A stretch of DNA of 64,000 nt, taken from positions 1,705,501 to 1,769,500 of the forward strand of contig NZ_CP106881.1 in NCBI RefSeq assembly GCF_023634805.2. Reading direction: 5' to 3'. The notes below the pieces were generated by a model, which made no database searches, had not been told where the DNA came from, and was given only the letters and a program-made list of their open reading frames with translations. The DNA comes from Comamonas endophytica (GTDB lineage: Bacteria; Pseudomonadota; Gammaproteobacteria; Burkholderiales; Burkholderiaceae_C). Each line of letters begins with the position of its first letter. Positions within the stretch are counted from its first letter, which is position 1. Shown piece after piece: positions 9,029 to 27,791 of the stretch. The translations under genes were made by a program, and so were the position numbers.

Positions 9029-9090
9029 CAATGCGCGGGGCCGTGCCGCCGCCCGCGCCGGCTTCCGAGATCGAGAAGGAAAGTGCTCCC

Positions 9091-10915: not shown

Positions 10916-11313
10916 TCAGCAGCCACCGGCAGCCTGGCAGTCACCTTGATCTCGAACTGGAAACCATAAAGCCAGGTCACGCCCACCCCTGTCAGCGTCG
11001 GGTAGGGCGCTTCGCCCCAGAATTCCGGCACGATGCGCCAGATGGTCTCGAAGTGGGCTTCGGGATCCACCACGAAAACCGTGACATCGATCACGTCCTC
11101 GAAAGTGCAGCCGGCAGCTTCCAGCACCGCATTCAGGTTGGCAAATGCGCGCCGCACCTGGGCCTCGAGCTCCGGCTCGGGTGAGCCGTCCTCGCGGCTG
11201 CCGACCTGGCCGGAGACAAACAACAGGCCATTGGCGCGCACCGCCGGCGAATAGCGGTTGCGTTCATACAGCGCCTGGCGGCCCGCGGGGAAAACGACAT
11301 CGCGTTGCGTCAT
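10912..11313 (-). CDS. RidA/YjgF-family protein lacking the catalytic arginine
   Basis: 133 residues with the RidA trimer fold: YSPAVRANGLLFVSGQVG, then VRRAFANLNAVLEAAGCTFEDVIDVTVFV. True RidA deaminases (imine/enamine hydrolysis) have an Arg in a PxRxxVGV-type segment and a VEIE motif. Here the segment is PYPTLTGVGV with Pro at the Arg place, and the end is FEIKVTA with Lys for the second Glu. It therefore belongs to a Rid subfamily with a different, unknown reaction. It lies divergent from a LysR regulator at 11436, which probably controls it. Confidence 0.85.
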   Translation of the reverse strand: MTQRDVVFPAGRQALYERNRYSPAVRANGLLFVSGQVGSREDGSPEPELEAQVRRAFANLNAVLEAAGCTFEDVIDVTVFVVDPEAHFETIWRIVPEFWGEAPYPTLTGVGVTWLYGFQFEIKVTARLPVAAD

Positions 11314-11435
11314 GGGTTTCTTTCTTCAATGGAGAGGAAACCGACTTTAGGCACCTCGCAGGCTTCGATAAACCAGCAAGCCTGTCCAACACTGTTCGTA
11401 GAATCCAAACAATCTTCATTGGATCCGGAGTTCGG

Positions 11436-12362
11436 ATGGACCGTTTCGACGCCATGCAGGCCTTTGCCCGGGTGGTGGAAACCGGCAGCTTCACCAAGGC
11501 CGCGATGACGCTGCACATGAGCAAGACCAGCGTCACGCAGCTGGTGCAGCAGCTCGAAGCGCGGCTGCGCGTGCGCCTGCTGCATCGCACGACACGCAGG
11601 GTCAACGTGACCGCCGACGGCGCGGCCTATTACGAGCGCGTGGTGCGCGTGCTGGCCGATGTGGACGATGCCGAGACCAGCCTGTCGGGCGCGGCCGTTT
11701 CCCCGCGCGGCCGGCTGCGCGTGGACGTGCCCAGCCCCTTTGCGCGGCTGATCCTGGTGCCGGCATTGCGCGACTTCCATGCGCGCTATCCCGATATCCA
11801 GCTCGATCTGGGCGTCAGCGACCGCATGGTGGACATCATCGGCGAGAACGTCGACTGCGTGGTGCGCGGCGGGCAGCTCACCGACCAGTCGCTGATGCAC
11901 CGGCATATAGGCGACCTGCAGCTGGGTGTCTACGCCGCGCCGGAATACCTGGCGCTGGCCGGCAAGCCGCTGCATCCGCATGAACTGCAGGACACGCATC
12001 ACCGCATCGTCGGCTTCCACTGGGCCCGCCACGGCAGGGCCGCGTCCTATGCCATGCACTGCGCGGGCGAGAGCATCGAAGTGCGTGGGCGCCACGCGCT
12101 CTCGGTCGATGACGGCAACGCCTATCTGGCCGCCGGGCTGGCGGGCCTGGGCGTGCTGTGGCTACCCGAATACATGGCTGCAGCGCACCGGCAAAGCGGC
12201 GAGCTGGTGGCGCTGTTCGAGGACTGGCAGCTGGAGCCGATGCCGCTCTATCTGGCCTTCCCGCCGCATCGGCATGTGAGCGCCAAACTGCGCGTGTTCA
12301 TGGACTGGGTGGCGGCGCTGATGGACGGGCTCGCACCCGTGGCGCGGCATGCCGGCAGGTAG
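11436..12362 (+). CDS. LysR-family transcriptional regulator (1)
   Basis: 308 residues. The N-terminal winged helix-turn-helix runs from MDRFDAMQAFARVVETGSFTKAA to LVQQLEARLRVRLLHRTTRRVNVT. An effector-binding domain of two alpha/beta lobes follows (RGRLRVDVPSPFARLILVPAL; YPDIQLDLGVSDRMVDIIGENVDCVVRGG). The sequence is of the common betaproteobacterial CrgA/DsdC-like subgroup. It is divergent from the RidA-like gene with a 122-base gap, so that gene is the likely target. The start at 11436 gives the canonical MDRFDAM opening. Confidence 0.9.
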   Translation: MDRFDAMQAFARVVETGSFTKAAMTLHMSKTSVTQLVQQLEARLRVRLLHRTTRRVNVTADGAAYYERVVRVLADVDDAETSLSGAAVSPRGRLRVDVPSPFARLILVPALRDFHARYPDIQLDLGVSDRMVDIIGENVDCVVRGGQLTDQSLMHRHIGDLQLGVYAAPEYLALAGKPLHPHELQDTHHRIVGFHWARHGRAASYAMHCAGESIEVRGRHALSVDDGNAYLAAGLAGLGVLWLPEYMAAAHRQSGELVALFEDWQLEPMPLYLAFPPHRHVSAKLRVFMDWVAALMDGLAPVARHAGR

Positions 12363-14162: not shown

Positions 14163-14192
14163 TTGACAGTCCATTTGCTTGAAGTCTATAAA
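14163..14192 (+). promoter_or_regulatory. Sigma-70 promoter of the SDR-Bug-CoA transferase operon
   Basis: TTGACA at 14163-14168 matches the -35 consensus perfectly, and TATAAA at 14187-14192 follows after 18 bases as -10. The start codon is at 14219. The palindromic operator at 14183-14201 covers the -10, as expected for a repressor site. Confidence 0.7.
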
Positions 14193-14201
14193 GTACAGAA
14201 T
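14183..14201. promoter_or_regulatory. Candidate GntR operator, site 1
   Basis: On the minus strand it reads ATTCTGTACTTTATAGACT, differing from the perfect palindrome at 19207-19225 at 3 of 19 positions. It overlaps the -10 of the SDR operon promoter. I infer binding by the GntR/FCD protein encoded at 18399, because all three copies lie in promoter regions of this cluster. Confidence 0.65.
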
Positions 14202-14218
14202 ACAAGATAGGAGACAAG

Positions 14219-14980
14219 ATGGAACGTTTTGCACGCGAGGTGGTGATTGTGACTGGCGCGGGGCGGGGCATCGGCCTGGCCATCGCGCAGCGTTTCATGG
14301 ACGAGGGCGCCTATGTGGCCATCGCGGACAACCAGGCCGAGGTACTGGAGCAGGCCCAGAACACCCTGGGCCACCGGGAGCGCCTGCTCGCCATGGTGTG
14401 CGACGTGTCCAGCGCGCAGGATGCGCAACGGCTGGCGCAGCAGACGCTGCAACGCTTCGGGCCCGTCGGCGTGCTGGTCAACAACGCCGGCATCTCGCCC
14501 AAGCATGCGGGCGTCAAGGCGCCCATCGCCGAAATGGACGAGGCCGAATGGCGCCAGGTGCTGGACATCAATCTCACAGGCGCGTTCCTGTGCTCGCAGG
14601 CCTGCCTGGAACAGATGAAGGGGCGCGGATTCGGGCGCATCGTCAACATCGCCTCGCAGGCCGGGCGCACGCGCACCGACATTGCCGGCGCGCATTACGC
14701 CGCCTCCAAGGCCGGCATGATGGGCCTGACCCGGGTGCTGGCCACCGAGCATGGCCGCGACGGCATCACCGCCAACGCCATCGCGCCGGGCCGCATCGAG
14801 AGCGCCATGGCGGCTGCCGCCGGCGCCGCGGTCAACGCCGCCTATCTGGAACGCATTCCCGTCGGCCGGCTCGGCACGCCGCAGGACATCGCCGCTGCCG
14901 CCGCCTTCCTGGCCAGCCGGGAAGCCGGCTTCATCAGCGGCGCCACGCTCGACGTCAACGGCGGCACCTTCATGATCTAA
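14219..14980 (+). CDS. SDR-family NAD(P)-dependent oxidoreductase
   Basis: 253-residue classical short-chain dehydrogenase. The cofactor motif TGAGRGIG is at residues 12-19, NNAG near 93, and the catalytic Ser-Tyr-Lys set is visible in NIASQAG and HYAASKAGMMG. The Asp in VAIADNQAE, after the second beta strand, favours NAD. The C-terminal GATLDVNGGTFMI is typical of 3-oxoacyl-ACP-reductase-like SDRs that act on many alcohols. It is the first gene after the operator-covered promoter and heads the Bug-CoA transferase-MDR run. ATAGGAG precedes the ATG. The substrate is unknown; a hydroxy intermediate of the cluster's pathway is likely. Confidence 0.9.
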   Translation: MERFAREVVIVTGAGRGIGLAIAQRFMDEGAYVAIADNQAEVLEQAQNTLGHRERLLAMVCDVSSAQDAQRLAQQTLQRFGPVGVLVNNAGISPKHAGVKAPIAEMDEAEWRQVLDINLTGAFLCSQACLEQMKGRGFGRIVNIASQAGRTRTDIAGAHYAASKAGMMGLTRVLATEHGRDGITANAIAPGRIESAMAAAAGAAVNAAYLERIPVGRLGTPQDIAAAAAFLASREAGFISGATLDVNGGTFMI

Positions 14981-15040
14981 CCACCGCGCATTCACCACCA
15001 CGAGGGCTGCCAAAGCCCCGCATCCACCGGAGACAAAGCC

Positions 15041-16003
15041 ATGAACAGGATCCTTCAAGTGTTGGCCGCGGCCACCCTGGCCGCCAGCGCGATGAGCTTG
15101 CCGCTAGCGGCCGGCGCGACCTATCCCGAGCGCGAGATCAAGCTGGGCGTCGGCTACGGGGCCGGTGGCGTGGGCGACGTCTCGGCGCGCCTGCTGGCCA
15201 AATCCATGGAAAAGGAGCTGAAGCACCCCATCATCGTTCTCAACCGGCCCGGCGCCCAGGCGACCCTGAACCCGGCGCAGCTGGCGCGGCTCGAGCCCGA
15301 CGGCTACAACGTCGGCGTGCTGACCTTCGCGCCCATGGCCATCGTGCCGCACATGCTGCCGGTGACCTATACCGCCAAGGACTTCATCTTCGCCGGCGCC
15401 TTCGGCCGTTTCCAGTACGGCCTGGCCGTGCGCGCCGACTCGCCCTACAAGACGGTCAAGGACCTGGTGGAAGCAGCCAAAGTCAAGCCGATCTTCTTCG
15501 GCGCACCGGGCGCGCCCAACAACATCGCCCTGTACGAGCTGGGCCGCAAGAGCGGCGCGCGCTTCGAGCAGGTGCTGTACAAGTCGGGCAACGACACCGT
15601 GCTGTCGCTGATCGCCGGGCAGACGGAGGTCATCATCCAGACCCCGTCGGAGATCATGCCGCACGTGCAGTCGGGCAAGCTGCGGCTGCTGGCCTCGGTG
15701 AGCCCCGCGCGCTGGCCCGACCGGCCCGACATGCCCACCGTGAAGGAAAGCGGCTATGACGTGGAGATCGAGTCCTGGATGGGCCTGGCGGTGCCCAAGG
15801 GCACGCCCGCACCCATCGTCGAGCGGCTGCAGGGCGCGATGATGACGGCCATGAAGGACAAGGACGTGCTGGACGGGTTCAAGCGCATGGGGCTCGATGC
15901 CGTCACCATGACCGGCCCCGAATACGCGCGCATGATCGACGAGGGCTACGTCGCCATGGGCAAGGCCCTCAAGGAAGCCGGGCTGACCGGCAAGCAGCCA
16001 TGA
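15041..16003 (+). CDS. Bug-family tripartite tricarboxylate transporter receptor (3)
   Basis: 320-residue periplasmic receptor. The signal peptide is MNRILQVLAAATLAASAMSLPLAAGA. The mature opening YPEREIKLGVGYGAGGVGDVSARLLA departs from the usual IVPF-GGGTD form, and NRPGAQATLNPAQLARLEPDGYN replaces the usual GAGG-N loop, so this is a divergent branch. It still shows LYKSGNDTVLSLIAGQTEVIIQTPSEI and a family-type end. CCGGAGACAAAGCC precedes the ATG. Its last bases overlap the CoA-transferase start (ATGA). No TctA/B is present nearby. Confidence 0.9.
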   Translation: MNRILQVLAAATLAASAMSLPLAAGATYPEREIKLGVGYGAGGVGDVSARLLAKSMEKELKHPIIVLNRPGAQATLNPAQLARLEPDGYNVGVLTFAPMAIVPHMLPVTYTAKDFIFAGAFGRFQYGLAVRADSPYKTVKDLVEAAKVKPIFFGAPGAPNNIALYELGRKSGARFEQVLYKSGNDTVLSLIAGQTEVIIQTPSEIMPHVQSGKLRLLASVSPARWPDRPDMPTVKESGYDVEIESWMGLAVPKGTPAPIVERLQGAMMTAMKDKDVLDGFKRMGLDAVTMTGPEYARMIDEGYVAMGKALKEAGLTGKQP

Positions 16004-17286
16004 GCGCGGCCATGGGCGCCCTGAGCGGCATCCGGGTGCTGGACCTGAGCCGGGTGCTGGCCGGCCCCTGGGTCGCGCAGATGCTGGCCGACTTCGGCGC
16101 CGACGTGATCAAGGTCGAGCGCGCGGGGGTGGGCGACGAATCGCGCACCCAGGGCAGCCGGCCGGCGCAGCGCGCGGGCCACAACACCGAGGACAGCTCG
16201 GGCTTCAGCGCCGTCAACCGCGGCAAGCGCTCCATCGAGCTGGACCTGTCCCTGCCCTCGGGCCAGGAGGTGGCGCGGCGCCTGGCCGCCGAATGCGACA
16301 TCCTGATCGAGAACTTCAAGACCGGCGACCTGCAGCGCTACGGGCTCGACTACGCCACGCTCGGCCGCATCAACCCGCGCCTGGTCTACTGCTCGATCAC
16401 CGGCTTCGGCCAGACCGGGCCGTACCGCCAGCTGCCGGGCTACGACCTGATCTTCCAGGCCATGAGCGGCCTGATGAGCGCCACGGGCGGGCCGCACGAC
16501 GCCCCGGGCGGCGGGCCGCAGCGCGTGGGCTACCCGATCTCCGACGCCACGGCCGGCCTGTACGCCACCATCGGCATCCTGGCCGCGCTGCGCTGGCGCG
16601 ACACGCCCGGGGGCAGCGGGCAGCACATCGATCTGGCGCTGCTCGATGCGCAGATCGCCGCCATGACGCTGGTGCCCACCAATTACCTGATCGCGGGCCA
16701 GCTGCCGCAGCGCGTGGGCATCGCCTCGCAGATGAGCTGCCCCTACCAGGCCTTCGACTGCGCCGACGGGCAGCTGGTGGTGGCCGTCAACAATGCCAAG
16801 CAGTTCACTGCCATGTGCCGCGTGCTGGGCCTGGAGCATCTGGCGCAGGAGCCGCTCTACGCCAGCAATGCGCTGCGCGTGGCGAACCGCGCCAGCCTGA
16901 TTCCGCCGCTGGCCGAGGCCATGGCGCGGATGCCGGTGGCCGAGTGCCGTGCGCGCCTGTCCGACGCCGGCGTGCCCTGCGGCCCGCTCAACGATATCGG
17001 CCAGGTCTTCGAGGACGAACAGGTACGGCACCGCGGCCTGCGCCAGCAGGTGGCGCATCCGGTCAAGGGCATCACGCCGATCGTGGCGAATCCGCTCAAG
17101 TTCTCGGCCTCGCCCGTGGCCTACCGGCGCGCGCCGCCGCAGCTGGGCGAACATACCGCCGAGGTGCTGCGCGAGCTGCTGGGCATGGATGAAGCCGAAC
17201 TCTCCGACCTGCGCGCCGCCGGCGGCGTGGGCAGCTCCGACCTGGCGCGCCAGAGCGCCGGCGATACGATGAAAGTGACTTCATGA
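16000..17286 (+). CDS. CaiB/BaiF family (class III) CoA-transferase
   Basis: 428 residues. This family moves CoA between carboxylic acids through an Asp acyl-anhydride. The N-terminal signature LSGIRVLDLSRVLAGPWVAQMLADFGADVIKVE is complete. The likely nucleophile is the Asp in YPISDATAGLYATIGILAAL near residue 180. NRGKRSIELDLSLPSGQEVARRL and LRQQVAHPVKGI are also typical. It starts on the ATGA overlap with the Bug gene and its stop overlaps the next gene in the same way, so all three are translationally coupled. It probably turns the imported acid into its CoA ester. Confidence 0.92.
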   Translation: MSAAMGALSGIRVLDLSRVLAGPWVAQMLADFGADVIKVERAGVGDESRTQGSRPAQRAGHNTEDSSGFSAVNRGKRSIELDLSLPSGQEVARRLAAECDILIENFKTGDLQRYGLDYATLGRINPRLVYCSITGFGQTGPYRQLPGYDLIFQAMSGLMSATGGPHDAPGGGPQRVGYPISDATAGLYATIGILAALRWRDTPGGSGQHIDLALLDAQIAAMTLVPTNYLIAGQLPQRVGIASQMSCPYQAFDCADGQLVVAVNNAKQFTAMCRVLGLEHLAQEPLYASNALRVANRASLIPPLAEAMARMPVAECRARLSDAGVPCGPLNDIGQVFEDEQVRHRGLRQQVAHPVKGITPIVANPLKFSASPVAYRRAPPQLGEHTAEVLRELLGMDEAELSDLRAAGGVGSSDLARQSAGDTMKVTS

Positions 17287-18263
17287 AAGCCATGCTCTGC
17301 CGCCGATACGGCCCGCCGGACAGCCTGCAACTCGAGGACGTGCCCAGCCTGCAGCCCGGGCCGCAGCAGGTGGTGATCGGCGTTGCCGCCGCGGGCGTCA
17401 ATTTCCCCGACACGCTGATCATCCAGGGCAAGTACCAGTACAAGCCCGAGATGCCTTTTTCTCCGGGCGGCGAGGTGGCCGGCACCATCCTGCGCGTGGG
17501 CAGCGAGGTCACCGGGCTGCAGCCAGGGGACCGCGTGCTGGCGCCGCTGGGCTGGGGCGGCTATGCCGAGGAGGCGCTGGCCGAGGCCTGGCGCGTGCTG
17601 CCCATTCCCGGGGAGATGGACTTCGACACGGCGTCGGCCTTTGCGCTGACCTATGGCACCTCGCACCATGCGCTGAAGGACCGCGCCCGGCTGCGGCCCG
17701 GCGAGACCCTGCTGGTGCTGGGCGCCGCCGGGGGCGTGGGGCTGGCGGCGATCGAGATCGGCAAGGCCATGGGGGCGCGCGTGATTGCCGCTGCCTCCAG
17801 CGACGAAAAGCTGGCGCTGTGTGCCGAACACGGCGCCGACGCGCTGATCCACTATGGCCGCGACGACCTGCGCGCCCGGATCAAGGAAATCGTTGGCGAC
17901 CGGGGCGTGGATGTGGTCTATGACCCGGTGGGCGGCAAGCTCAGCGAGCCGGCGCTGCGCAGCATCGCGTGGAACGGACGCTTCCTGGTGGTCGGATTCG
18001 CGGCTGGCGATATACCATCCATCGCGCTCAACCTGCCGCTGCTCAAGGGCTGCGCCATCCTCGGCGTGTTCTGGGGGGCGTTCGCACGCAAGCAGCCCGA
18101 GGACAACGCGGCCAACATGCGCGAGCTTTTCCAGTGGTTCCGCGAGGGGCGGGTGCGGCCGTATATCTGCGCGCGATTCCCGCTGGAGCAGGCGGCGCAG
18201 GCGATGGAGCTGGTGGCTGGCCGCGGGGCAAGGGGGAAGGTGGTGATTACGGTGGGATCTTGA
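17283..18263 (+). CDS. NADPH:quinone oxidoreductase-like MDR protein (zinc-free)
   Basis: 326-residue medium-chain reductase/dehydrogenase without zinc ligands. The opening MKAMLCRRYGPPDSLQLEDVP, then AGVNFPDTLIIQGKYQ and PGGEVAG, match the QOR2-like group. The nucleotide-binding motif LGAAGGVGLAAIEIGKAMGA lies near residue 150. Members reduce enones, quinones or enoyl-CoA double bonds with NADPH. In this operon, after a CoA-transferase, reduction of an enoyl-CoA or enone intermediate is plausible. It starts inside the CoA-transferase stop (ATGA) and ends the operon; a REP-like repeat follows. Confidence 0.85.
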   Translation: MKAMLCRRYGPPDSLQLEDVPSLQPGPQQVVIGVAAAGVNFPDTLIIQGKYQYKPEMPFSPGGEVAGTILRVGSEVTGLQPGDRVLAPLGWGGYAEEALAEAWRVLPIPGEMDFDTASAFALTYGTSHHALKDRARLRPGETLLVLGAAGGVGLAAIEIGKAMGARVIAAASSDEKLALCAEHGADALIHYGRDDLRARIKEIVGDRGVDVVYDPVGGKLSEPALRSIAWNGRFLVVGFAAGDIPSIALNLPLLKGCAILGVFWGAFARKQPEDNAANMRELFQWFREGRVRPYICARFPLEQAAQAMELVAGRGARGKVVITVGS

Positions 18264-18277
18264 GGACAGGCCATTCA

Positions 18278-18396
18278 TCCTTCGATCCTTCGACAAGCTC
18301 AGGATCAGGACGAACGGTTTTTTACCGCTCGCCCTGCGCTTGCCTCGGCGGCCCCGTCGAAGGGCGTTTCAAGGCAGGGCGGTCAAGATGAAAACG
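18278..18396. repeat. REP-like intergenic repeat, copy 2 (long form)
   Basis: Runs from TTCGACAAGCTCAGGA through CGAACGG, GCCTCGGCGGCCCCGTCGAA and GGGCGTTTCAAGGCAGGGCG to GGTCAAGATGAAAACGC. Its whole length, about 115 bases, is the inverted counterpart of copy 3 at 22905-23022. The right end reaches the last codon of the gntR gene at 18399. Confidence 0.8.
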
Positions 18397-18398
18397 CT

Positions 18399-19109
18399 CT
18401 AGGCGCTTTCCGCCTGCGCCTGCGCATCCGCGCGCAGCGCATTCACCACCGGCTCGCCGCCGCGGATGATGTCCTGCGCCACCGCCTGCGCCGCGAGTTC
18501 GGGATCGCGCGCCTTCAGCGCGGCCAGCAGGCCGTCATGCTCGTGGGTCTTCGGCAGCGGGACGGTGTCGCGGTAGATCAGGTTGAGATAGGGGCCGGTG
18601 CGCACCCACAGCGACTCGATCAGCGCCACCAGCTCGGCGCGCCCGCTCAGGGCGTAGATGCCGAGGTGGAATTCACGGTTCAGCCGCATGGTGCTGCGGT
18701 AATCGCCGCCGCGCTTGGCGACCATCATCTGCCGGTGCAGCTTGCCCAGCGCCACGAGATCGGCGTTCTTCACGTTCTCCGCCGCGCAGCGGCAGGCCAG
18801 GCCCTCGAGCGCGACGCGGATGTCGCGCAGCTCGATGTAGTCGTCCGCGCTCAGCACCGGCACGGTCACCGACTTGTTGCGGTGCATCGTCAGCGCGCGC
18901 TCGGCCACCAGTTGCAGCATGGCTTCGCGCACCGGGGTCTGGCTCACGCCCAGGCGGTCGATCAGCGTGCGGGCGCTGAGTTTCTGGCCCGGCAGCAGCT
19001 CGCCGTTGGCCAGTGCGCTGCGCATGAATTCATACACCTTGGTCGACAGGTTCGTGTGTGCAAGGCGCTCCGAGGCTTCGTGCGCGTTATCGCTGGCGGA
19101 CAGGATCAT
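18399..19109 (-). CDS. GntR-family regulator, FadR/FCD subfamily
   Basis: 236 residues from the ATG at 19109; a GTG at 19193 would add 28 residues but has no spaced ribosome site. The winged helix-turn-helix covers about residues 18-85 (TKVYEFMRSALANGELLPGQ, LIDRLGVSQTPVREAMLQLVAE). An all-helical FCD effector domain follows, with metal or ligand residues in YIELRDIRVALEGLA, REFHLGIYALSG and HDGLLAALKARDPELAA. It is divergent from the ThDP enzyme gene at 19256. The palindrome at 19207-19225 between them overlaps that gene's promoter, so it likely represses itself and the cluster until an acid effector binds. Confidence 0.9.
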   Translation of the reverse strand: MILSASDNAHEASERLAHTNLSTKVYEFMRSALANGELLPGQKLSARTLIDRLGVSQTPVREAMLQLVAERALTMHRNKSVTVPVLSADDYIELRDIRVALEGLACRCAAENVKNADLVALGKLHRQMMVAKRGGDYRSTMRLNREFHLGIYALSGRAELVALIESLWVRTGPYLNLIYRDTVPLPKTHEHDGLLAALKARDPELAAQAVAQDIIRGGEPVVNALRADAQAQAESA

Positions 19110-19199
19110 TTTCAAAAAGTGTTCAAAGGGTTTGGCCAATTGAATCACACGCACAGCCAAGGGGTCCAAGGCGGCGGTTCTCCACTGGGTCACTCCGGG

Positions 19200-19228
19200 T
19201 TGACATATTCTATAGTTTATAGAATTAT
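19200..19228 (+). promoter_or_regulatory. Sigma-70 promoter of the ThDP enzyme-ADH-hydratase operon
   Basis: TTGACA at 19200-19205 is a perfect -35 and AATTAT at 19223-19228, 17 bases later, is a weak -10. The spacer is almost filled by the operator palindrome at 19207-19225. The start codon is at 19256. Confidence 0.6.
19207..19225. promoter_or_regulatory. Candidate GntR operator, site 2 (perfect palindrome)
   Basis: ATTCTATA-GTT-TATAGAAT: both 8-base arms are exact inverted repeats. It lies between gntR and the ThDP enzyme gene, within the latter's -35/-10 spacer. Two close relatives lie at 14183-14201 and 25814-25832. Confidence 0.75.
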
Positions 19229-19255
19229 TCGAAGCATTCTACTAGGAGACACGCC

Positions 19256-21028
19256 GTGAACGACATCGCTTCCGCTCCCGTTGCATCCCTGGATGCGCTC
19301 GATCCCACCACCCGCCGCGCCACGCGCTCGCGCGGGCTGGACTACCGCGATACCGTCGCGCACCGCATCGCCCAGGGCCTGCAGCGCCACGGCGTGACCT
19401 GCCTTTTCGGCCAGAGCCTGCCGTCGATGGTGCACCTGGCCGCGCGCGAGCTGGGCCTGCAGCAGATCGCCTACCGCCAGGAGAACACCGGCGGCTACAT
19501 GGCCGATGCCTATGCGCGGCTCACCGGCAAGGTGGGCGTGGTCACCGCGCAGAACGGCCCCGCCGCCGCCCTGCTGGTGGCGCCGCTGATGGAGGCGCTG
19601 AAGGTGTCGGTGCCGGTGATCGCGCTGGTGCAGGACGTGGCGCGCGACCAGACGGACCGCAACGCCTTCCAGGAAATCGACCACGAGTCCATGTTCCGCC
19701 CCTGCAGCAAGTGGGTGCGCCGCGTCACCGATGCCAGGCGCATCGACGACTACCTGGACATGGCCTTCGTGGCCGCCACCAGCGGCCGGCCCGGGCCTGC
19801 CGTGCTGATGCTGCCCGCCGACCTGCTGCTCGAGCCCGCGCCCCCCGCCAGCCATCGTGCCGCCTCGCTGGGCCACTATCCGCTGGACCGCGCCCTGCCC
19901 GGCAGCGCCGACCTGGATGCCGCCGCGGCCCTGCTGGCCGGCGCCGAGCGGCCCGTCGTCATTGCCGGCGGCGGCGTGCACCTGTCGGGCGCCAGCGCCG
20001 AGCTTGCACGTCTGCAGGAGGCCGCCAGCCTGCCCGTGGCCACCACCGTCATGGGCAAGGGCAGCGTGGACGAGCGCCATCCGCTGTCGCTGGGCGTGGT
20101 CAGCTACTTCACCGGGCCCAACGGCGGCGCGCGCTATCTCAAGCAGATGGTCACGGGCGCCGATGTGGTGCTGCTCGTGGGCAACCGCACCAACCAGAAC
20201 GGCACCGATTCCTGGAAGCTGTACCCCGAGGGCGCGAAATTCATCCACATCGACGTGGCGCCCGAGGAAGTCGGCCGCAACTACGAAGCCATGCGGCTGA
20301 TCGGCGACGCGCGGCTGACGCTGGCCGCCCTCACCGAGCGCCTGGAGACGCTCGACCTGGGCAAGCGCCATGCCGCGCGCGCCGATGTCGAGGCCACGAT
20401 CCGCCAGGGCCAGCAGCAGCATGTGCGCGAGGTGGCGCGGCTGGTCGAGAGCGATGCCGCGCCGGTGCGGCCGGAGCGCATCATGGCGGAGATCGACAGC
20501 CGTCTGCAGGGCGACAGCGTGGTGGTGGCCGATGCCAGCTACTCCTCGATCTGGATCGCCAACTACCTGAAGTCGCGCCGCGCGGGCATGCGTTTTCTCA
20601 CGCCGCGCGGCCTGGCCGGGCTGGGCTGGGGTTTCCCGATGGCCCTGGGCGCACGCGTGGCGCAGCCCGAGGGGCATATCTTCTGCGTCGTGGGCGACGG
20701 CGGCTTCGCCCATGCCTGGGCCGAGCTGGAGACCGCCGTGCGCATGAAGCTCAAGGTGGTGCTGGTGGTGCTGAACAACGGCATCCTGGGCTACCAGAAG
20801 CATGCGGAGAACGTCAAATTCGGCGCCTTCACCGATGCCTGCGAATTCGCGCCGGTGGACCATGCCGCGCTGGCCCGGGCCACCGGCGCGCATGGCGTGC
20901 GCGTGGAGCAGCCGGGCGAACTGGGCGCGGCGCTCGACGAGGCTCTCGCGGCCGACGGCGTCACGCTGATCGATGTGGTGACCGACCCGGACGCCTTCCC
21001 TCCCGTCAGCTGGTACGAGGTGGTCTGA
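19256..21028 (+). CDS. ThDP-dependent acetolactate synthase/benzoylformate decarboxylase-like enzyme (1)
   Basis: 590 residues in the three-domain ThDP fold. The cofactor-activating Glu is E76 in AYRQENTGGYMADAYAR. The central domain is near 210-340, and the ThDP/Mg motif begins at residue 480 (GDGGFAHAWAELETAVRMKL) and ends in NN at 507-508. Family members cleave or join C-C bonds next to a carbonyl: acetolactate synthase, sulfoacetaldehyde acetyltransferase, 2-hydroxyacyl-CoA lyase, cyclohexanedione hydrolase. No small regulatory subunit is nearby, so a biosynthetic role is unlikely. Starts at GTG with GGAGACACGCC upstream. It leads the ADH and hydratase genes by one base. A catabolic lyase on a 2-oxo or 2-hydroxyacyl substrate is inferred. 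Confidence 0.85.
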   Translation: MNDIASAPVASLDALDPTTRRATRSRGLDYRDTVAHRIAQGLQRHGVTCLFGQSLPSMVHLAARELGLQQIAYRQENTGGYMADAYARLTGKVGVVTAQNGPAAALLVAPLMEALKVSVPVIALVQDVARDQTDRNAFQEIDHESMFRPCSKWVRRVTDARRIDDYLDMAFVAATSGRPGPAVLMLPADLLLEPAPPASHRAASLGHYPLDRALPGSADLDAAAALLAGAERPVVIAGGGVHLSGASAELARLQEAASLPVATTVMGKGSVDERHPLSLGVVSYFTGPNGGARYLKQMVTGADVVLLVGNRTNQNGTDSWKLYPEGAKFIHIDVAPEEVGRNYEAMRLIGDARLTLAALTERLETLDLGKRHAARADVEATIRQGQQQHVREVARLVESDAAPVRPERIMAEIDSRLQGDSVVVADASYSSIWIANYLKSRRAGMRFLTPRGLAGLGWGFPMALGARVAQPEGHIFCVVGDGGFAHAWAELETAVRMKLKVVLVVLNNGILGYQKHAENVKFGAFTDACEFAPVDHAALARATGAHGVRVEQPGELGAALDEALAADGVTLIDVVTDPDAFPPVSWYEVV

Positions 21029-21029
21029 G

Positions 21030-22088
21030 ATGCTGGCATTGCGCAAAACCGCCCCCGCTCCCGGGCTGTCGCTCGACGAGGTGCCCGAGCCCGGCCGGCC
21101 TGGCCCGGGCGAAGTGCTGATCGAGGTGGCCGCGGCCGGCATCTGCGGCTCGGACGTGCATGTCTACGAATGGACCGGCAGCTACGAGTTCATGCGCCGG
21201 CGCCTGCCGGTCATCCTGGGCCACGAGTTCTGCGGCCGCATCGCCGCCGTCGGGCCCGATGTCCCGGGCCTGGCGCAGGGCGATCTGGTGTCCGCCATTC
21301 CCACCATCGGCTGCATGAAGTGCGCGGCCTGCGCCGGCGGCTTTGCGCAGCGCTGCGAATCGCGCCGCACCATCGGGCTGACCAGCGACGGCGCCTTTGC
21401 GCGCTTCGTGCGCGTGCCCTGGCTGGCGTGCATCCCCCTGCGCGAGGGCACCGACCCGGTGCTGGGCGCGCTGATGGAGCCGCTGTGCGTGGGCGACAAC
21501 GCCGCCGAGGTGGGCGCGGTGACCCATGGCGACACGGTGCTGGTGCTGGGCCCCGGCACCATCGGCCAGGCGATCGCGCGGGCCGCTGCCTGGCGCGGCG
21601 CCACCACGGTGGTGGTGGCAGGCCTGAACGACGGCGCCCGGCTGCAGACCGCGCGCCAGATCGGCGCCACGCACACGCTGGATCTGGCGCACACGCCCGA
21701 TCTGGCCAGCGCCTTTCTGGCGGCCACCGGCAACCGCATGGCCGATGTGGTGTTCGAGGCCACGGGCCATCCCGCCAGCATCTCGCAGGGGCTGTCGGTG
21801 CTGCGCAAGGACGGCATCCTGGTGACGGCCGGCATCCATGCCCAGCCCGCGTCCATCGACCTGACGGCACTGGTGCGCAACCGCCAGCAGATCCGCGGCG
21901 CCCATGCCTCGCAGCGCCGCGGCTGGGAGGTGATGGCGCGCCGCCTGTACGAAACGCCCGAGGCCGTGCGGCCCTTTGTCTCGCTGGTGATGGGGCTGGA
22001 CCAGGCCATCGAGGGCTTCGAGCAATCGAAGGCGCGCGGTGTGTCCAAGGTGGTGCTGCAGCCCGGCCTTGCCATGGAGGCTGCATGA
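21030..22088 (+). CDS. Zinc-dependent alcohol dehydrogenase (sorbitol/threonine dehydrogenase type)
   Basis: 352-residue zinc MDR enzyme. Catalytic zinc ligands are Cys in AGICGSDVHVYE and His-Glu in LGHEFCG. The structural zinc site has four Cys in GCMKCAACAGG, a C-x2-C-x2-C-x7-C pattern. The cofactor motif is LGPGTIGQAIARAA near residue 172. It oxidises a secondary alcohol to a ketone with NAD(P). It follows the ThDP enzyme gene after one base and overlaps the hydratase gene by four bases (ATGA), so the three work together. It could produce the ketone or aldehyde that the ThDP enzyme handles, or remove its product. Confidence 0.9.
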   Translation: MLALRKTAPAPGLSLDEVPEPGRPGPGEVLIEVAAAGICGSDVHVYEWTGSYEFMRRRLPVILGHEFCGRIAAVGPDVPGLAQGDLVSAIPTIGCMKCAACAGGFAQRCESRRTIGLTSDGAFARFVRVPWLACIPLREGTDPVLGALMEPLCVGDNAAEVGAVTHGDTVLVLGPGTIGQAIARAAAWRGATTVVVAGLNDGARLQTARQIGATHTLDLAHTPDLASAFLAATGNRMADVVFEATGHPASISQGLSVLRKDGILVTAGIHAQPASIDLTALVRNRQQIRGAHASQRRGWEVMARRLYETPEAVRPFVSLVMGLDQAIEGFEQSKARGVSKVVLQPGLAMEAA

Positions 22089-22870
22089 ACGCCGACGCGG
22101 GAGAAATCCTCTACGAAGTGCGCGACGGCCATACCGCCGTGCTGACCCTCAACCGGCCGCAGGCGCGCAACGCCGTCAACGGCGCCGTGGCCGCGGCCAT
22201 GGAGGCGCTGGTGGAGCGCACCGAGTCCGATCCCGAAATCCGCGCGGTGGTGCTTGCCAGCTCGCATGCGGAGGTGTTTTCCGCCGGCGCGGATCTGAAG
22301 GAGATCGCCGCCGGCCGGCGCGCCAGCCTGCGCACGGAACGCGGCGGCTTTGCCGGCCTGGCCTTTGCGCGGCGCGACAAGCCATGGATCGCCGCGGTGG
22401 ACGGCAAGGCCCTGGCCGGCGGCTGCGAGCTGGTGCTGAGCTGCGACATGGTCGTGGCCTCCACCGCTGCCAGCTTCGGCCTGCCCGAAGTATTGCGCGG
22501 GCTGGTGGCCGCGGCCGGAGGCCTGTACCGGCTGCCGCGCGCGCTGCCCCCGAATGTCGCCCTGGAGCTGATCGCCACCGCCCTGCCGATCGACGCGGCG
22601 CGCGCCCACCATTTCGGTTTCGTCAACCGCCTCACGGCGCCGGGCGAGGCGCTGCAGGAGGCGCTGCTGCTGGCGCGCCAGATCGGCGCCAATGCCCCGG
22701 TGGCGGTGCGCGAGAGCCTGAAGGTGGCGCGCGCCGCGCTGGACCGCATCGAGCCCGAACTGCGCCAGCGCAGCGCCGAGGCCATGGCCGTGGTGGCGGC
22801 CAGCGAGGATTACCGCGAAGGGCCGCTGGCTTTCATTGAAAAGCGCGCGCCGCGGTGGAGGGGGCGCTGA
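22085..22870 (+). CDS. Enoyl-CoA hydratase/isomerase (crotonase) family protein
   Basis: 261 residues of the crotonase fold. The oxyanion-hole segments are AEVFSAGADLKEIAAGR near residue 62 and DGKALAGGCELVLSCDMVV near 105. One of the two usual catalytic acids is seen in FGLPEVLRGL; the second position (GGLYRLPRALP) lacks an acidic residue, so isomerase, hydrolase or lyase activity is possible rather than standard hydration. Its start overlaps the ADH stop. It is the last gene of the operon and shows, with the CoA-transferase, that the pathway runs through CoA esters. Confidence 0.87.
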   Translation: MNADAGEILYEVRDGHTAVLTLNRPQARNAVNGAVAAAMEALVERTESDPEIRAVVLASSHAEVFSAGADLKEIAAGRRASLRTERGGFAGLAFARRDKPWIAAVDGKALAGGCELVLSCDMVVASTAASFGLPEVLRGLVAAAGGLYRLPRALPPNVALELIATALPIDAARAHHFGFVNRLTAPGEALQEALLLARQIGANAPVAVRESLKVARAALDRIEPELRQRSAEAMAVVAASEDYREGPLAFIEKRAPRWRGR

Positions 22871-22904
22871 GGGCCCGATTGCCCGCTGGGCGCCCCCGGC
22901 AAGG

Positions 22905-23022
22905 GCATTTTCATCTTGACCGCCCTGCCCTGAAACGCCCTTCGACGGGACCGCCGAGGCAGGCTCAGGGCGAACGGTGGGGTTATCCGTTCGTCCTGAG
23001 CTTGTCGAAGGATGACGGGCTG
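22905..23022. repeat. REP-like intergenic repeat, copy 3 (long form, inverted relative to copy 2)
   Basis: Begins GCATTTTCATCTTGACC, continues CGCCCTGCCCTGAAACGCCC and TTCGACGGGACCGCCGAGGC, then holds the AGGCTCAGGGCGAACGG and CCGTTCGTCCTGAGCTTGTC hairpin arms. Nearly the whole of it matches copy 2 in reverse complement. It separates two convergent operons. Confidence 0.8.
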
Positions 23023-23070
23023 CTCAGCACGAAACTGCCATAGGCGCCCCCGGCTGGGCGCCCCCCACCT

Positions 23071-24003
23071 TCAAACATTGAGAAAATTCAACCCCAGCCC
23101 GGGCCGCTCCCACTCCATCGCCACCAGCCGCCCGGTGGAGGACAGGGTGATGAAAGCAGTCTGCAACGAAGGCCCGCCAAAGCACAGATTGGTGGTCATG
23201 GCGTCGGGCATGGGAATGTGTTCGATGTGCGCGCCGCAGGGCGACACCACCGTGATGCCGCCGTTCGAGAGCGTCGCCACGCAGATATTGCCGGCGCTGT
23301 CCAGCGCCAGCGAATCCAGGTTCTGGTAGCCCGGCAGCCCCGCCACCAGCCGCCCGCCCTGGGGCGAATGCGGCCAGGGCTGGGGCTTGATCTCGCCCGG
23401 CGCGCTCAGCTCGAAGGCCCAGATCCGACCGGTGAAGGTCTCGGCCACATAGAGCGTGCGTTCATCGGCCGACAGCCCGATGCCGTTGGGCGACCACAGC
23501 GGGAAGATGATCTCGCGGATGGAGGAGCCATCGGCCCGGGCGTAATACACGCTGCCCCGGTCCACGTCGCGCGCCCGGGTCTTGCCATGGTCGGTGAACC
23601 AGAAGCCACCCTGGCGGTCGAACACCAGGTCGTTGGGCCCGCGCAGCGGTCCGCTTTCGCTGCGCTCGTAGAGGCGCTCGACGCGGCCGCTGGCCAGGTC
23701 CACGGTCTCGATCCAGCCGCCGGTGTAATCGTCCGCCTGCCCGATCGGGCGTATGCCGTGCTCGGCGCTGTCATGCCACTTGAAGCCGCCGTTGTTGCAG
23801 ATGTAGACCTTGCCATCGGGCCCGAGGGCCGCGCCGTTGGGCCCGCCCTGCAACTGCACGATGCGCTCGACGCGGCCATCGGTGCCCACGCGCGTCAGCG
23901 TGCGGCCCTCGATCTCCACCAGCAGCAGCGAGCCGTCGGGCATGGCGATCGGGCCTTCGGGAAAGCGCAGGCCTGCGGCTATTTCCTGGATTCGAACGGT
24001 CAT
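23071..24003 (-). CDS. SMP-30/gluconolactonase-family protein (2)
   Basis: 310-residue predicted beta-propeller lactonase. Metal-site motifs: LRFPEGPIAMPDGSLLLVE (Glu), LRGPNDLVFDRQGGFWFTD (Asn), SPNGIGLSADERTLYVAE (Asn) and LDSLALDSAGNICVA (Asp). It differs clearly from the SMP-30 protein at 9091, so the two are not a recent duplication. It starts on the ATGA overlap with the second ThDP enzyme gene, so the two are translated together. That pairing, a C-C lyase with a lactonase, hints at a cyclic ester or diketone intermediate. Confidence 0.85.
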   Translation of the reverse strand: MTVRIQEIAAGLRFPEGPIAMPDGSLLLVEIEGRTLTRVGTDGRVERIVQLQGGPNGAALGPDGKVYICNNGGFKWHDSAEHGIRPIGQADDYTGGWIETVDLASGRVERLYERSESGPLRGPNDLVFDRQGGFWFTDHGKTRARDVDRGSVYYARADGSSIREIIFPLWSPNGIGLSADERTLYVAETFTGRIWAFELSAPGEIKPQPWPHSPQGGRLVAGLPGYQNLDSLALDSAGNICVATLSNGGITVVSPCGAHIEHIPMPDAMTTNLCFGGPSLQTAFITLSSTGRLVAMEWERPGLGLNFLNV

Positions 24004-25745
24004 TGCGCGTCTCCTTGGGGTTCACGGGATTCGACGACCGCGCTCAGTGGCGAGGTCAGCTGATCGAAGCGCAACTCCAGCGAAGTCATCACGTCGATGA
24101 CGGTGGGCCGGCCGCTGGCCAGCGCCGCCTGCAGCGCCGGGCCCAGTTGGGACGGCTCATGCACCCGCACGCCCTCGCAGCCCATGCCGCGGGCAATGGC
24201 GGCGTGGTCGAAGTCGCCCAGCGTCGTGGCAAAGGGCCCGCGCGAATGCAGCGACCAGCCCAGTGCCTGGTTGTTGAAGATGATCACGACGATGGGCAGC
24301 GATTGCTCGACGGCGGTCATGAGCCCGTTCATGGTCATGGCGAAGCCGCCGTCGCCCACCACCGCCACCACCGCGCGCTCGGGGTGCACCAGCTTGGCCG
24401 CCAGCGCCGCTGGAATGCCGTAGCCCATCGGGCCGGCGCCCGCCGCCTGCAGGAAGGCGCCCGCCGAGCGCGTCTGGTAGCAGTGCGTCATGAAAATGCG
24501 GTTCTCGCCCGCGTCGCAGGTGACGATCGCATCCTCGGGCAGATGCGCGTGCATCTCGGCGATGATGCGCTGCGGCATCAGCGGCGCGGCGTCGGACTGG
24601 TAGGCCGGCGCGTTGAAATGCCCATGCCGCGCGCGGTGGCCGGCCACGCGCTGCTGCCCGGCAAACGCGGGCATGCCGCCCAGTGCCTCGCCCAGCTGAT
24701 CGAGCACCGCGCCGGCATCGCCCAGCAGCACATGCTCCGCCGGGAAGGTCCAGGAGGCGTTGCGCGTCTCCACGTCGATCTGCACGAAGACCTGGCGCTC
24801 CGGGTCGAGCAGCAGCGGGTTCTCGCGCACGGTGTCAGAGGCCGTGAGCTTGGAGCCCACCACCAGCACCAGGTCGGCCTCGGCCACGCAGGCATTGGCG
24901 CCATCGGTGCCGAAGGTGCCGAACACCCCCAGTGCCAGGTCATGGGTCTCGGCCAGCACCCCCTTGCCCGAGGGCGTGGTGACGACCGGCACCCCGCTGC
25001 GCTCGGCAAAGCGCTGCAGCGCTTCGTAGGCGGCGGCCAGGCGCACGCCGTTGCCGGCGACGATCACCGGCCGGCGCGCGGCGCGCAGCGCTGCCGCGGC
25101 CTGTGCCACCGTGCGCGGATCGGCCGCCGCTGCCGGTGGCGGCAGGTAGTGATGCGTCGGATACAGCCGCGGCTCGGACTGCGGGCCGACCTCTCCGGTC
25201 AGCGCCTGCAACCCGAAGATCACCGCCACCGGGCCGGGCTGGCCGCTCAGCGCATGCTTGACTGCCAGCTGCGTCGCATGCACCGCCGAGGCCGGCTCGT
25301 GCACCGCGAACACCTGCTTGACCAGGCCGCCAAAGGCCTGGCGCGCATCCCAATTTCCGTACTCCCCCGTCCCCGATTGGTAGGGCGCATGCAGGCCAAA
25401 GGGCGGCGTGTCGCTGAAGTCCGTCAGCAGCAGCATCGGCGAGCTCGACAGCCGCGCCTCGATGGTGCCGACCAGGCCATTGCCCAGCACCCAGGGGCCC
25501 TGCCCCAGCACCACGCCCGGCTTGCGGGTGAGGCGCCCGTACACCTCGGCCATCACGGCGGCCAGCGACTCCTCGCGCACCAGCACCGTGCGGATGCTTT
25601 GCTGGCGCTGCTCGAGCGCCCCGAAGATGCGGCCGGTGTGGCCGCCGGAGATGCCGAAGACGGCGCCGATGCCGGCCTCCTCGAGGACTGCGGCAATGAG
25701 TTCCGGGCTGGGCCGGCTGTTTTTCAGACTGCGTTGGATGCTCAT
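24000..25745 (-). CDS. ThDP-dependent acetolactate synthase-like enzyme (2)
   Basis: 581 residues. The cofactor-activating Glu is E59 in VREESLAAVMAEVYGR, ten residues before the conserved Tyr. The ThDP/Mg motif starts at residue 464 (GDGGFAMTMNGLMTAVEQSL) and ends in NN. GISGGHTGRIFGAL is the N-terminal pyrimidine-domain opening. It is only distantly similar to the ThDP enzyme at 19256, so the cluster has two distinct C-C lyases rather than a duplicate. It is divergent from the liv genes; operator site 3 lies between. Closest in style to unnamed ThDP proteins of Comamonadaceae carboxylate clusters; the substrate is not known. Confidence 0.83.
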   Translation of the reverse strand: MSIQRSLKNSRPSPELIAAVLEEAGIGAVFGISGGHTGRIFGALEQRQQSIRTVLVREESLAAVMAEVYGRLTRKPGVVLGQGPWVLGNGLVGTIEARLSSSPMLLLTDFSDTPPFGLHAPYQSGTGEYGNWDARQAFGGLVKQVFAVHEPASAVHATQLAVKHALSGQPGPVAVIFGLQALTGEVGPQSEPRLYPTHHYLPPPAAAADPRTVAQAAAALRAARRPVIVAGNGVRLAAAYEALQRFAERSGVPVVTTPSGKGVLAETHDLALGVFGTFGTDGANACVAEADLVLVVGSKLTASDTVRENPLLLDPERQVFVQIDVETRNASWTFPAEHVLLGDAGAVLDQLGEALGGMPAFAGQQRVAGHRARHGHFNAPAYQSDAAPLMPQRIIAEMHAHLPEDAIVTCDAGENRIFMTHCYQTRSAGAFLQAAGAGPMGYGIPAALAAKLVHPERAVVAVVGDGGFAMTMNGLMTAVEQSLPIVVIIFNNQALGWSLHSRGPFATTLGDFDHAAIARGMGCEGVRVHEPSQLGPALQAALASGRPTVIDVMTSLELRFDQLTSPLSAVVESREPQGDAQ

Positions 25746-25813
25746 GGTTCGAAGTGGGTTGGGGCCCGGTTTGCCCTATTGACAGCGCTCGAAGCCGGGA
25801 CCAGGATGTACAC

Positions 25814-25832
25814 ATCTTGTAGTTTATAAACT
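25814..25832. promoter_or_regulatory. Candidate GntR operator, site 3
   Basis: ATCTTGTAGTTTATAAACT shares 14 of 19 positions with the perfect palindrome at 19207. It contains its own exact 12-base palindrome AGTTTATAAACT at 25821-25832. It lies between the second ThDP enzyme gene and livH. A TTGACA hexamer is at 25779-25784, but a convincing -10 after it is lacking. Confidence 0.6.
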
Positions 25833-25887
25833 ATTAACTTCAACCGGATACGGCAAAACCCGCGCCCTTGCAAATCGCATCTCTGCC

Positions 25888-26772
25888 ATGAACGATTTCA
25901 TCCAACTCCTGGTGTCGGGCATCCTGCTCGGCGGTGTCTATGCCCTCTGCGCGCTCGGGCTGAACCTCATCTTCGGCGTGGCGAAGGTGGTCAATTTCGC
26001 CCACGGCGAGTTCCTGATGCTGGGCATGTACGCGGGCTACTGGCTGATGCGCGGCACCGGCATCAATCCGTACTACGGCGCCCCGCTGGTGGGCGCCGCC
26101 TTCTTCGTGCTGGGCCTGCTCTTCTACTGGTGCCTGATGCGCTTCACCATCTACAAGCCGGAGATGACGCAGGTGTTCGCCACGCTCGGCCTGGGCATCG
26201 CGCTGCAGAACCTGGCCCTGCTGCTGTGGGGCGGCGACTACCGCACGGTGCAGGTGATGCCGGCCGGGGCGGAGTCGGTGGAGTTCCTGGGCATCACCGT
26301 GAGCGCCAACCGGCTGGTGGCCTTCTGCTTCGCCATGTCCATCCTGGCGGCGGTGGTGCTGTTCCTGCGCCTCACCTTCCTCGGGCGCGCCATCGAGGCG
26401 ATCTCGCAGGACATCTCGGCCGCGCGGCTGATGGGGATCGATCCCGGACGCATCTTCCTGCTCACCTTCGGCCTGGGCATCGGCCTCACCGGCATCGCCG
26501 GCGCGGTGCTGGTGCCCAGCTTCTATGCCTTCCCCTCGGTGGGCACCTTCTTCGTGCTCGTGGCCTTCGTGGTGGTGGTGCTGGGCGGCCTGGCCAGCGT
26601 GCCCGGGACGGTGATCGGCGGACTGGTGCTGGGGGTCATGGAGTCGTTCACGGGCTTTTTCAGCCCCGATCTCAAGGAAGCCACGCACTTCGTGCTGCTG
26701 ATCCTGCTGCTGGCGCTGCGCCCGCATGGTCTGTTCGGCGTCAAGGGCGCGGAAAAGGAGGCTCTCAAATGA
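25888..26772 (+). CDS. Branched-chain amino acid-type ABC transporter permease LivH
   Basis: 294-residue inner-membrane permease with about eight helices. The opening FIQLLVSGILLGGVYALCALGLNLIFGVAKVVNFAHGEF is the LivH signature. FVVVVLGGLASVPGTVIGGLVLG near residue 225 is the cytoplasmic loop that docks the ATPases. First gene of the livHMGF-binding protein-hydratase operon, overlapping livM by four bases. Liv-type importers in such catabolic clusters often carry aromatic or aliphatic acids rather than amino acids, which is my inference here given the CoA-ester enzymes around it. Confidence 0.92.
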   Translation: MNDFIQLLVSGILLGGVYALCALGLNLIFGVAKVVNFAHGEFLMLGMYAGYWLMRGTGINPYYGAPLVGAAFFVLGLLFYWCLMRFTIYKPEMTQVFATLGLGIALQNLALLLWGGDYRTVQVMPAGAESVEFLGITVSANRLVAFCFAMSILAAVVLFLRLTFLGRAIEAISQDISAARLMGIDPGRIFLLTFGLGIGLTGIAGAVLVPSFYAFPSVGTFFVLVAFVVVVLGGLASVPGTVIGGLVLGVMESFTGFFSPDLKEATHFVLLILLLALRPHGLFGVKGAEKEALK

Positions 26773-27791
26773 CATTGCGCTATCTGCTGCTGCACCGCAG
26801 CGACGCCTTCTGGACCCTGCTGCTGGTGGCAGCCGTGCTGCTCGGCGCGCTGGTGCCGAGCAACGACTACTACCTGAACCTGATGGTGCTGACCCTGCTG
26901 TACGCCGGCCTGGCCTCGGCCTGGAACATCGTCGGCGGCATGGCCGGGCAGTTCTCGCTGGGCCATACGGCCTTCGTCGGCATCGGCGCATACACCTCGA
27001 CGGTGCTGCTCAACTACGCCGGCATCAGCCCCTGGCTGGGCATGCTGGTGGGGGCGGCCTTCAGCATGCTGCTGGCGGTGGTCATTGCCTTTCCCACCTT
27101 CCGCATGCGCGGGGTGTTCTTCGCCATGGCCACGCTGGCTTTTTCCGAGACCGTGCGCATCCTGCTGATCTATTCGCGCAAGTTCGTCGATCTGCCCTAT
27201 GGCCTGAGCATCGACTTCCAGCCGGGTCTCGCGCGCATGGTGTTCGAAGACCGCGCCAGCTATGTCTGGCTGGCGGGCGGCTATCTGGCGCTGGTGCTGG
27301 CCGCGGCTTTCGTGCTGTCGCGCAGCTTCATGGGCTTCTACCTGCGCGCCATCCGCGACAACGAGGACGCGGCCGAGGCCACCGGCGTGCCGGTGCGCCG
27401 CTACAAGCTGCTGGCGCTGCTGCTTAGCGCGGCCTTCAGCTCCATCGGCGGCACGCTGATGGCGCAGTACGTCATGTATATCGAGCCGGGCACGGTGTTC
27501 ACCGTCGCGCTGTCCGTGGACCTGGCGCTGATGAGCATCCTGGGCGGCGTGGGCACGCTGGCCGGGCCGGTGCTGGGGGCGGCGATTGCGCTGCCCTTCC
27601 GCGAATTCCTGGTGGAGGCCTTTGGCGATGCCGCCTCCGGCACCCACCTGGTGGTCTACGGCCTGCTGCTGATCGTAATCGTGGTGCTGCTGCCGCAGGG
27701 CCTGCTGGGCGGCGCCCGCAGCCTGCGCGAGCGAATCGCGGCGCGCGGGCGCCGCAGCGCCGGGGCGCAGCCCAAGACAGGAGAACAGTGA
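26769..27791 (+). CDS. Branched-chain amino acid-type ABC transporter permease LivM
   Basis: 340 residues with about ten helices. The signature LYAGLASAWNIVGGMAGQFSLGHTAFVGIGAY is complete. The EAA-like ATPase-contact loop is MSILGGVGTLAGPVLGAAIALP near residue 255. Starts on the ATGA overlap with livH; its stop overlaps the start region of livG. Forms the second half of the membrane channel with LivH. Confidence 0.92.
   Translation: MTLRYLLLHRSDAFWTLLLVAAVLLGALVPSNDYYLNLMVLTLLYAGLASAWNIVGGMAGQFSLGHTAFVGIGAYTSTVLLNYAGISPWLGMLVGAAFSMLLAVVIAFPTFRMRGVFFAMATLAFSETVRILLIYSRKFVDLPYGLSIDFQPGLARMVFEDRASYVWLAGGYLALVLAAAFVLSRSFMGFYLRAIRDNEDAAEATGVPVRRYKLLALLLSAAFSSIGGTLMAQYVMYIEPGTVFTVALSVDLALMSILGGVGTLAGPVLGAAIALPFREFLVEAFGDAASGTHLVVYGLLLIVIVVLLPQGLLGGARSLRERIAARGRRSAGAQPKTGEQ

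Follow-up and report, generated by a model that had tools for sequence, protein, structure and literature searches.

Candidate operator sites at three promoter regions of a catabolic gene cluster in Comamonas endophytica and a GntR/FCD protein that may act at them

Does a single regulator act at every promoter region of a catabolic gene cluster, or only beside its own gene? The question is raised by a 64,000-nucleotide stretch of the Comamonas endophytica genome (contig NZ_CP106881.1, positions 1,705,501 to 1,769,500, forward strand), referred to here as the window and numbered from its first letter. Within it, a cluster of about 16 kb is arranged as four or five transcription units, namely SDR-Bug-CaiB-MDR (+), gntR (−), ThDP1-ADH-ECH (+), ThDP2-lactonase (−) and LivHMGFK (+), where ThDP denotes thiamine diphosphate. 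Three promoter regions serve all of these units, and an operator-like site is present at each of the three. We propose that the FCD-type GntR protein encoded in the cluster is a local repressor acting at all of its promoter regions, a reading to which, on the strength of sequence comparisons, we assign a probability of roughly 0.85.

The proposed operator, ATTCTATA-NNN-TATAGAAT, is palindromic, spans about 19 bp and has the core TRTANTTTATARAMT. Candidate site 2 (19207-19225, + strand) is an exact copy of the palindromic 19-mer ATTCTATAGTTTATAGAAT, consisting of two 8-bp arms around a 3-bp centre, as reported in a first-pass annotation of this DNA, and candidate site 1 (14183-14201, − strand) matches it at 16 of 19 positions, also in agreement with that annotation. 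The 14/19 match described there at 25814-25832 is present on the + strand, but gives only part of candidate site 3 (25814-25839), where a second 14/19 register (25821-25839, − strand) overlaps the first at a distance of 7 bp. A second register at this offset recurs and may provide an extra half-site. An alternative register (AGTTTATAAACT, 6-0-6), which is strong at site 3, is less likely to be the true operator, the 3-bp centre being favoured by the perfect 8-3-8 palindromes in the window, in Variovorax and in locus L070.

Such sequences are nearly unique to the cluster. Across the genome (4,488,558 bp, three contigs) the 19-mer with up to three mismatches is found at sites 1 and 2 only, and the equally good matches scattered in coding DNA that could have spoken against a shared operator are absent. 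The core TRTASTTTATARAMT, common to the three sites, occurs with up to one mismatch in these three regions only; as it was derived from these same sites, its uniqueness rather than its presence is informative. With two mismatches this core gains six further genomic matches, and a reversed control pattern has 19 with up to two. The somewhat looser core TRTANTTTATARAMT has exactly three exact matches in the 4.49-Mb genome, all of them at promoter regions of the cluster. Within the window, nothing else reaches 14/19 besides the three places and their overlapping registers, the next being a 13/19 match at 39252, and 100 shuffles of the window yielded no match to the 19-mer with up to three mismatches.

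The sites are located on or close to likely promoters. In the putative promoter of the SDR operon (14163-14192, +), site 1 covers the TATAAA (14187-14192) that follows TTGACA (14163-14168) after an 18-bp spacer. In the promoter of the ThDP1 operon (19200-19228, +), site 2 fills the 17-bp spacer between TTGACA (19200-19205) and AATTAT and includes the first three bases of this −10 element. Both TTGACA promoters had been noted in the first-pass annotation, which placed the third site between divergent genes. Site 3 does lie there, about midway between ThDP2 and LivH, but site 2, too, is flanked by divergent genes, and site 3 follows about 30 bp downstream of a TTGACA of its own (25779-25784, +), a candidate −35 element of the Liv operon that has a weak −10 and is conserved in Variovorax. 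Site 2 is positioned about 107 bp from gntR and about 40 bp from ThDP1, the spacing expected of single sites in FCD-type divergons as outlined in PMC4494728. A generic promoter scan lists the site-2 promoter only, the putative SDR-operon promoter being absent from its list; as the one promoter found compares with 1.0 expected in shuffles, the scan performs at chance level, and the promoter assignments therefore rest on position and conservation.

Conservation is most direct in Variovorax sp. J22P240 (locus L013), whose cluster agrees with that of the window in gene content and gene order, with 59–90% protein identity for the best matches and a GntR protein 72–74% identical to that of the window. 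Exact core matches are present at the three equivalent promoter regions and nowhere else in its 6.6 Mb. Thus, in both genomes, all three exact core matches stand at the cluster promoter regions, and the same operator is found at each of them and hardly elsewhere. The window and Variovorax agree in 32 of 32 bases around site 2, with the rest of the spacer aligning poorly. Site 3 (around 3292-3317 in L013) retains an 18-base identical block within surroundings that have mostly diverged, and the ortholog of site 1 (14860-14878 in L013) is less conserved, but still kept.

The association between palindrome and regulator extends to more distant relatives. Searches of 268 genomes of the f4 family (E up to 1e-45) identified the regulator in ten. 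Together with L013, the f4 loci comprise 11 other loci in which gntR is divergent from ThDP1, and ten of these have a place between the two genes that matches 12–16 of the 16 fixed palindrome positions; at nine of the ten site-bearing loci, the site begins 7–8 bases after the start of TTGAC. The count leaves out L071, where gntR lies at a contig end with no adjoining ThDP1, as well as L074 and L075, whose GntR proteins are 38–41% identical and which have no ThDP1 match in the stretch and no site at up to two mismatches. At L014–L017 (GntR 25–34% identical), no core match was found at up to three mismatches.

A matrix built from nine f4 sites, without any sequence from the window or Variovorax, returns the three candidate sites as its best three places in the window: 19207 (36.2 bits), 14183 (26.5 bits) and 25821/25814 (22.7/20.8 bits). 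It gave no match of at least 14 bits on 9 Mb of random sequence composed like the window. Under an intergenic-like null, scores this high would arise in the site's own spacer with a probability of about 8e-5 at site 1 and about 5e-4 at site 3. This independent matrix, the Variovorax sites and the ten of 11 GntR-ThDP1 loci lend support to the first-pass proposal of one regulon across the cluster genes, in the form of a putative local regulon in which the GntR/FCD protein acts at three sites. The lower scores of sites 1 and 3 could alternatively indicate that GntR controls only its own divergon through site 2, the other two being weak or inactive look-alikes, and the f4 relatives indeed have one site per locus at up to two mismatches, beside gntR. 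However, Variovorax retains sites 1 and 3 at the corresponding promoter regions, and exact core matches in its genome are exclusive to the cluster, and we consider control of the divergon alone unlikely.

Several observations nevertheless weigh against a regulon of three sites. Site 3 is the weakest of the three and has a poor −10. The pattern ATTCTATANNNTATAGAAT with up to three mismatches misses site 3, yet matches one unrelated place in the genome (1855699), and the f4 matrix scores a fourth place in the window, 53192, at 19.0 bits. Locus L072, with a 51%-identical ortholog that has the same helix, reaches 11/16 and shows no clear site. Six similar AT-rich palindrome matches occur in five of 52 other genomes of the genus, which are without this GntR. 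The exact core is present once each in eight of the ten f4 genomes with the regulator, always between gntR and ThDP1, and also in 46 of the 258 without it, so that similar AT-rich strings exist without this GntR at a background of about 18% per f4 genome. Together with the presence of a LysR gene upstream of the cluster (11145-12362), this background would suit a palindrome that belongs to another regulator or that forms an AT-rich promoter element unrelated to GntR. We regard this explanation as extremely improbable: across f4, presence of the core correlates with presence of the regulator (Fisher P 5.6e-5), the palindrome accompanies the GntR-ThDP1 pair at nearly all of the other loci, and the offsets from TTGACA differ among the three window sites, the element therefore not being itself a fixed promoter element. 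Finally, the operator has TRTA-N3-TAYA in place of the TKGT/ACMA boxes usual in the FadR subfamily, for which BioR and NanR are among the exceptions named in PMC4494728. Membership of FadR/FCD stands, because it rests on the domains and because the TKGT/ACMA rule has such known exceptions.

These domains are clearly recognizable in the predicted regulator (18399-19109, − strand), which scores 51.7 bits with Pfam GntR (cut-off 27) and 80.9 bits with Pfam FCD (cut-off 24.3). The first-pass annotation of a GntR/FCD gene adjoining the perfect palindrome is thereby upheld, except for its start, which is likelier to be ATG 19109 than GTG 19193, since the 28 extra residues encoded from GTG 19193 precede the homologous Variovorax start. 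The palindrome at 19207-19225, with its similar counterparts at the other loci, also agrees with the FadR/FCD trait of an operator near the regulator gene. The protein does not reach the curated NCBIfam cut-off of PRK11414 (124.6 bits against 225), a family that we take to be grouped with McbR, or that of PhnR (TIGR03338; 78.3 bits against 271.5).

All aligned orthologs retain the helix VSQTPVREA[ML]LQL. In an alignment of 88 homologs, anchored on FadR residues, the position of FadR Arg45 (position 38 of the helix-turn-helix) is occupied by Gln in 84, by Leu in two and by a gap in two, whereas Arg35 is kept in 85 of the 88 and Glu34 is mostly replaced by Gly or Ala. Gln is described as generally preferring A (PMC4494728), and the loss of the operator G appears to go together with the loss of Arg, as a correlation. 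SQTP is also present in the helix of two non-ortholog paralogs (L020 and L024), and Gln is therefore not exclusive to this lineage.

We infer that the GntR/FCD protein binds this palindrome, probably as a dimer, at each of the three promoter regions. At site 1 it would cover the −10 of the SDR-Bug-CaiB-MDR operon. At site 2 it would fill the spacer in the promoter of ThDP1-ADH-ECH, and autoregulation of gntR from there is probable. Bound to site 3, it would be placed near the expected start of LivHMGFK, about midway to the divergent ThDP2-lactonase operon. Repression is suggested because the sites overlap promoters: in the absence of inducer, the bound protein would block RNA polymerase, and an imported substrate or pathway intermediate would bind the FCD domain and release it. 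The opposite arrangement, in which GntR would be an activator at these sites or would bind them only together with the inducer, has a parallel in the FCD regulator CitO, described as binding with its ligand and inducing transcription (PMC4746285). We judge it very unlikely here, as the positions of site 1 on the −10 and of site 2 in the promoter spacer fit a block of RNA polymerase, and as the site closely follows TTGAC in almost all site-bearing relatives. The repression that we favour is, as a kind of control, ordinary and well known, that of a local GntR regulon, and the non-canonical operator with its coupled residue change is the most interesting aspect.

The genes under this putative control encode mainly enzymes and transporters. 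Downstream of site 1, on the + strand, are an SDR oxidoreductase (14219-14980; Pfam adh_short_C2), a Bug/TctC periplasmic receptor (15041-16003; Pfam TctC), a CaiB/BaiF-type (class III) CoA-transferase (16000-17286; Pfam CoA_transf_3) and an MDR-type quinone oxidoreductase-like dehydrogenase (17283-18263; Pfam ADH_N and ADH_zinc_N). Site 2 precedes, also on the + strand, the thiamine-diphosphate enzyme ThDP1 (19256-21028; NCBIfam PRK06112, 942.6 bits, cut-off 673), a Zn-dependent ADH (21030-22088; Pfam ADH_N and ADH_zinc_N) and an enoyl-CoA hydratase family protein, ECH (22085-22870; Pfam ECH_1 on 22100-22870). Site 3 separates ThDP2, a second thiamine-diphosphate enzyme (24000-25745, −; Pfam TPP_enzyme_N/M/C), and an SMP-30-type lactonase (23071-24003, −; Pfam SGL; 373 bits with PDB 8djf/7ris) from the Liv operon on the + strand, which comprises LivH-type (25888-26772) and LivM-type (26769-27791) permeases (both Pfam BPD_transp_2), LivG-type (27788-28519; Pfam ABC_tran and BCA_ABC_TP_C) and LivF-type (28461-29240; Pfam ABC_tran) ATPases, and a LivK-type substrate-binding protein (29237-30517; Pfam Peripla_BP_6, matched on a longer open reading frame). 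A second SMP-30-type protein is encoded upstream of the cluster (8806-10041), beside the LysR gene.

The cluster appears to break down a small molecule and to be controlled as one unit by its own repressor. Its gene set, with two ThDP enzymes, two dehydrogenases, an SDR, a CoA-transferase, a hydratase, a lactonase and two solute-capture systems, fits the import of a hydroxy or keto compound and the cleavage of its carbon chain. Acetolactate synthases, glyoxylate carboligase and hydroxyacyl-CoA lyases are among the ThDP1 relatives of solved structure, a range too broad to name a substrate. In the alphaproteobacterial plasmids L078, L079 and L080, dihydroxyacetone kinase genes lie close to the ThDP1 homolog, a possible hint to the pathway product that we offer only as a lead. 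What results is a testable regulon of 14 genes besides the regulator, for an uncharacterised catabolic pathway whose inducer could be found by screening for what releases a single repressor.

In the f4 relatives with long enough contigs, one site is followed by a co-oriented run of all or some of the genes for ThDP1, Liv, ADH, SDR and Bug, whereas in the window and Variovorax the same genes are distributed among several units that have three sites. The regulator was absent from 36 other same-genus genomes searched (E up to 1e-50; best 1.1e-34) and was found in one of 101 Variovorax-group genomes searched at the same threshold. Because the distribution of the regulator is patchy, horizontal transfer is suggested. 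On alphaproteobacterial plasmids this gene set is accompanied either by a GntR that is 40% identical or by another GntR, and the helices differ. Carriage of the same operator to these plasmids is not favoured, in view of the other palindromes found beside gntR, which are TTGATATATCAA in L077 (8780-9010) and, common to L079 (2700-2890) and L080 (5740-5860), CTGTTATAACAAAT. An origin of the three window sites as promoter copies from duplication is not favoured, since their surroundings differ in a comparison by eye, made without an alignment of the three spacers. Tentatively, and at somewhat less than even odds, we suggest that this lineage is an FCD branch of its own whose DNA-reading code has changed, in which Gln would replace the guanine-reading Arg45, Glu34 would be lost and the GT/AC core would have become the nearly pure A/T TRTA-N3-TAYA; this branch would have spread by horizontal transfer within a catabolic cassette, and the operator would have been copied to each new promoter region when an ancestral single-operator gene run split. 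The locus thus offers a natural case both for how FCD regulators read operators without a GT/AC core and for the multiplication of operators upon operon splitting.

Other palindromes were encountered in the course of the searches. A perfect 16-bp palindrome, TAGAAAATATTTTCTA (53191-53206), lies just upstream of an RpiR-family regulator gene (53212-54114; HTH_6 and SIS domains) and is likely another regulator's operator. A perfect 9-3-9 palindrome, GTTATGCATGAAATGCATAAC, is located at 56640-56660, and for two nearby open reading frames the frames tried returned no Pfam match. The palindrome GATAGTTTAAAACTATC (39225-39241) is close to the 13/19 operator-like ATCGCATAGTTTATGCATT (39252-39270), near the 5′ end of the open reading frame 37907-39247 (−). 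In 11 genomes of genus g93 without this GntR (E up to 1e-45), a shared palindrome, TATATTTTATAAAATATA, is present on both strands, 3 bp apart, and is perhaps another regulator's site.

A literature search that left most subscription journals outside it found no paper on this regulon, and in a search with operator strings the three 15-mers appeared in no paper among the matches listed, most of which were to short strings. Searches on the cluster and on the lactonase structure gave nothing usable, the lactonase PDB codes leading to unrelated papers. The closest comparisons are with characterised relatives of the regulator. As described in PMC4494728, FadR/FCD regulons share with the window a GntR helix-turn-helix joined to FCD, a palindromic AT-rich operator with a 3-bp centre, a single site between the regulator gene and the structural operon that lies nearer the latter, and control over several operons of one pathway. 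They differ in that the window has TRTA/TAYA instead of TKGT/ACMA and Gln for FadR Arg45, with Glu34 changed to Ala or Gly in most homologs. Atu1419 of Agrobacterium fabrum is likewise an FCD repressor of a catabolic cluster, with palindromes that at one promoter overlap the −10 and at another are placed between −35 and −10 (PMC7797058). Its operator ATGTATACAT has an essential G at position 3 that is read by Arg45, and a G-to-A change abolished binding (PMC7797058), whereas the window protein has Gln for this Arg and its operator core is without that G.

The E. coli protein McbR/YncC (PDB 4p9f) is the best solved relative by sequence (104 bits), although it has Ile where the window protein has Gln and the curated families of its group score below their cut-offs. 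It is reported on AT-rich sites with an ATATAT motif, and on very many AT-rich sites rather than in a local regulon of three sites (PMC13343897). BioR is a member of the FadR subfamily whose operator, TTATMKATAA, is also without a GT/AC core (PMC4494728). Because of BioR, operators lacking this core have a precedent. Its palindrome is unlike the window operator in sequence and it serves another pathway, that of biotin.

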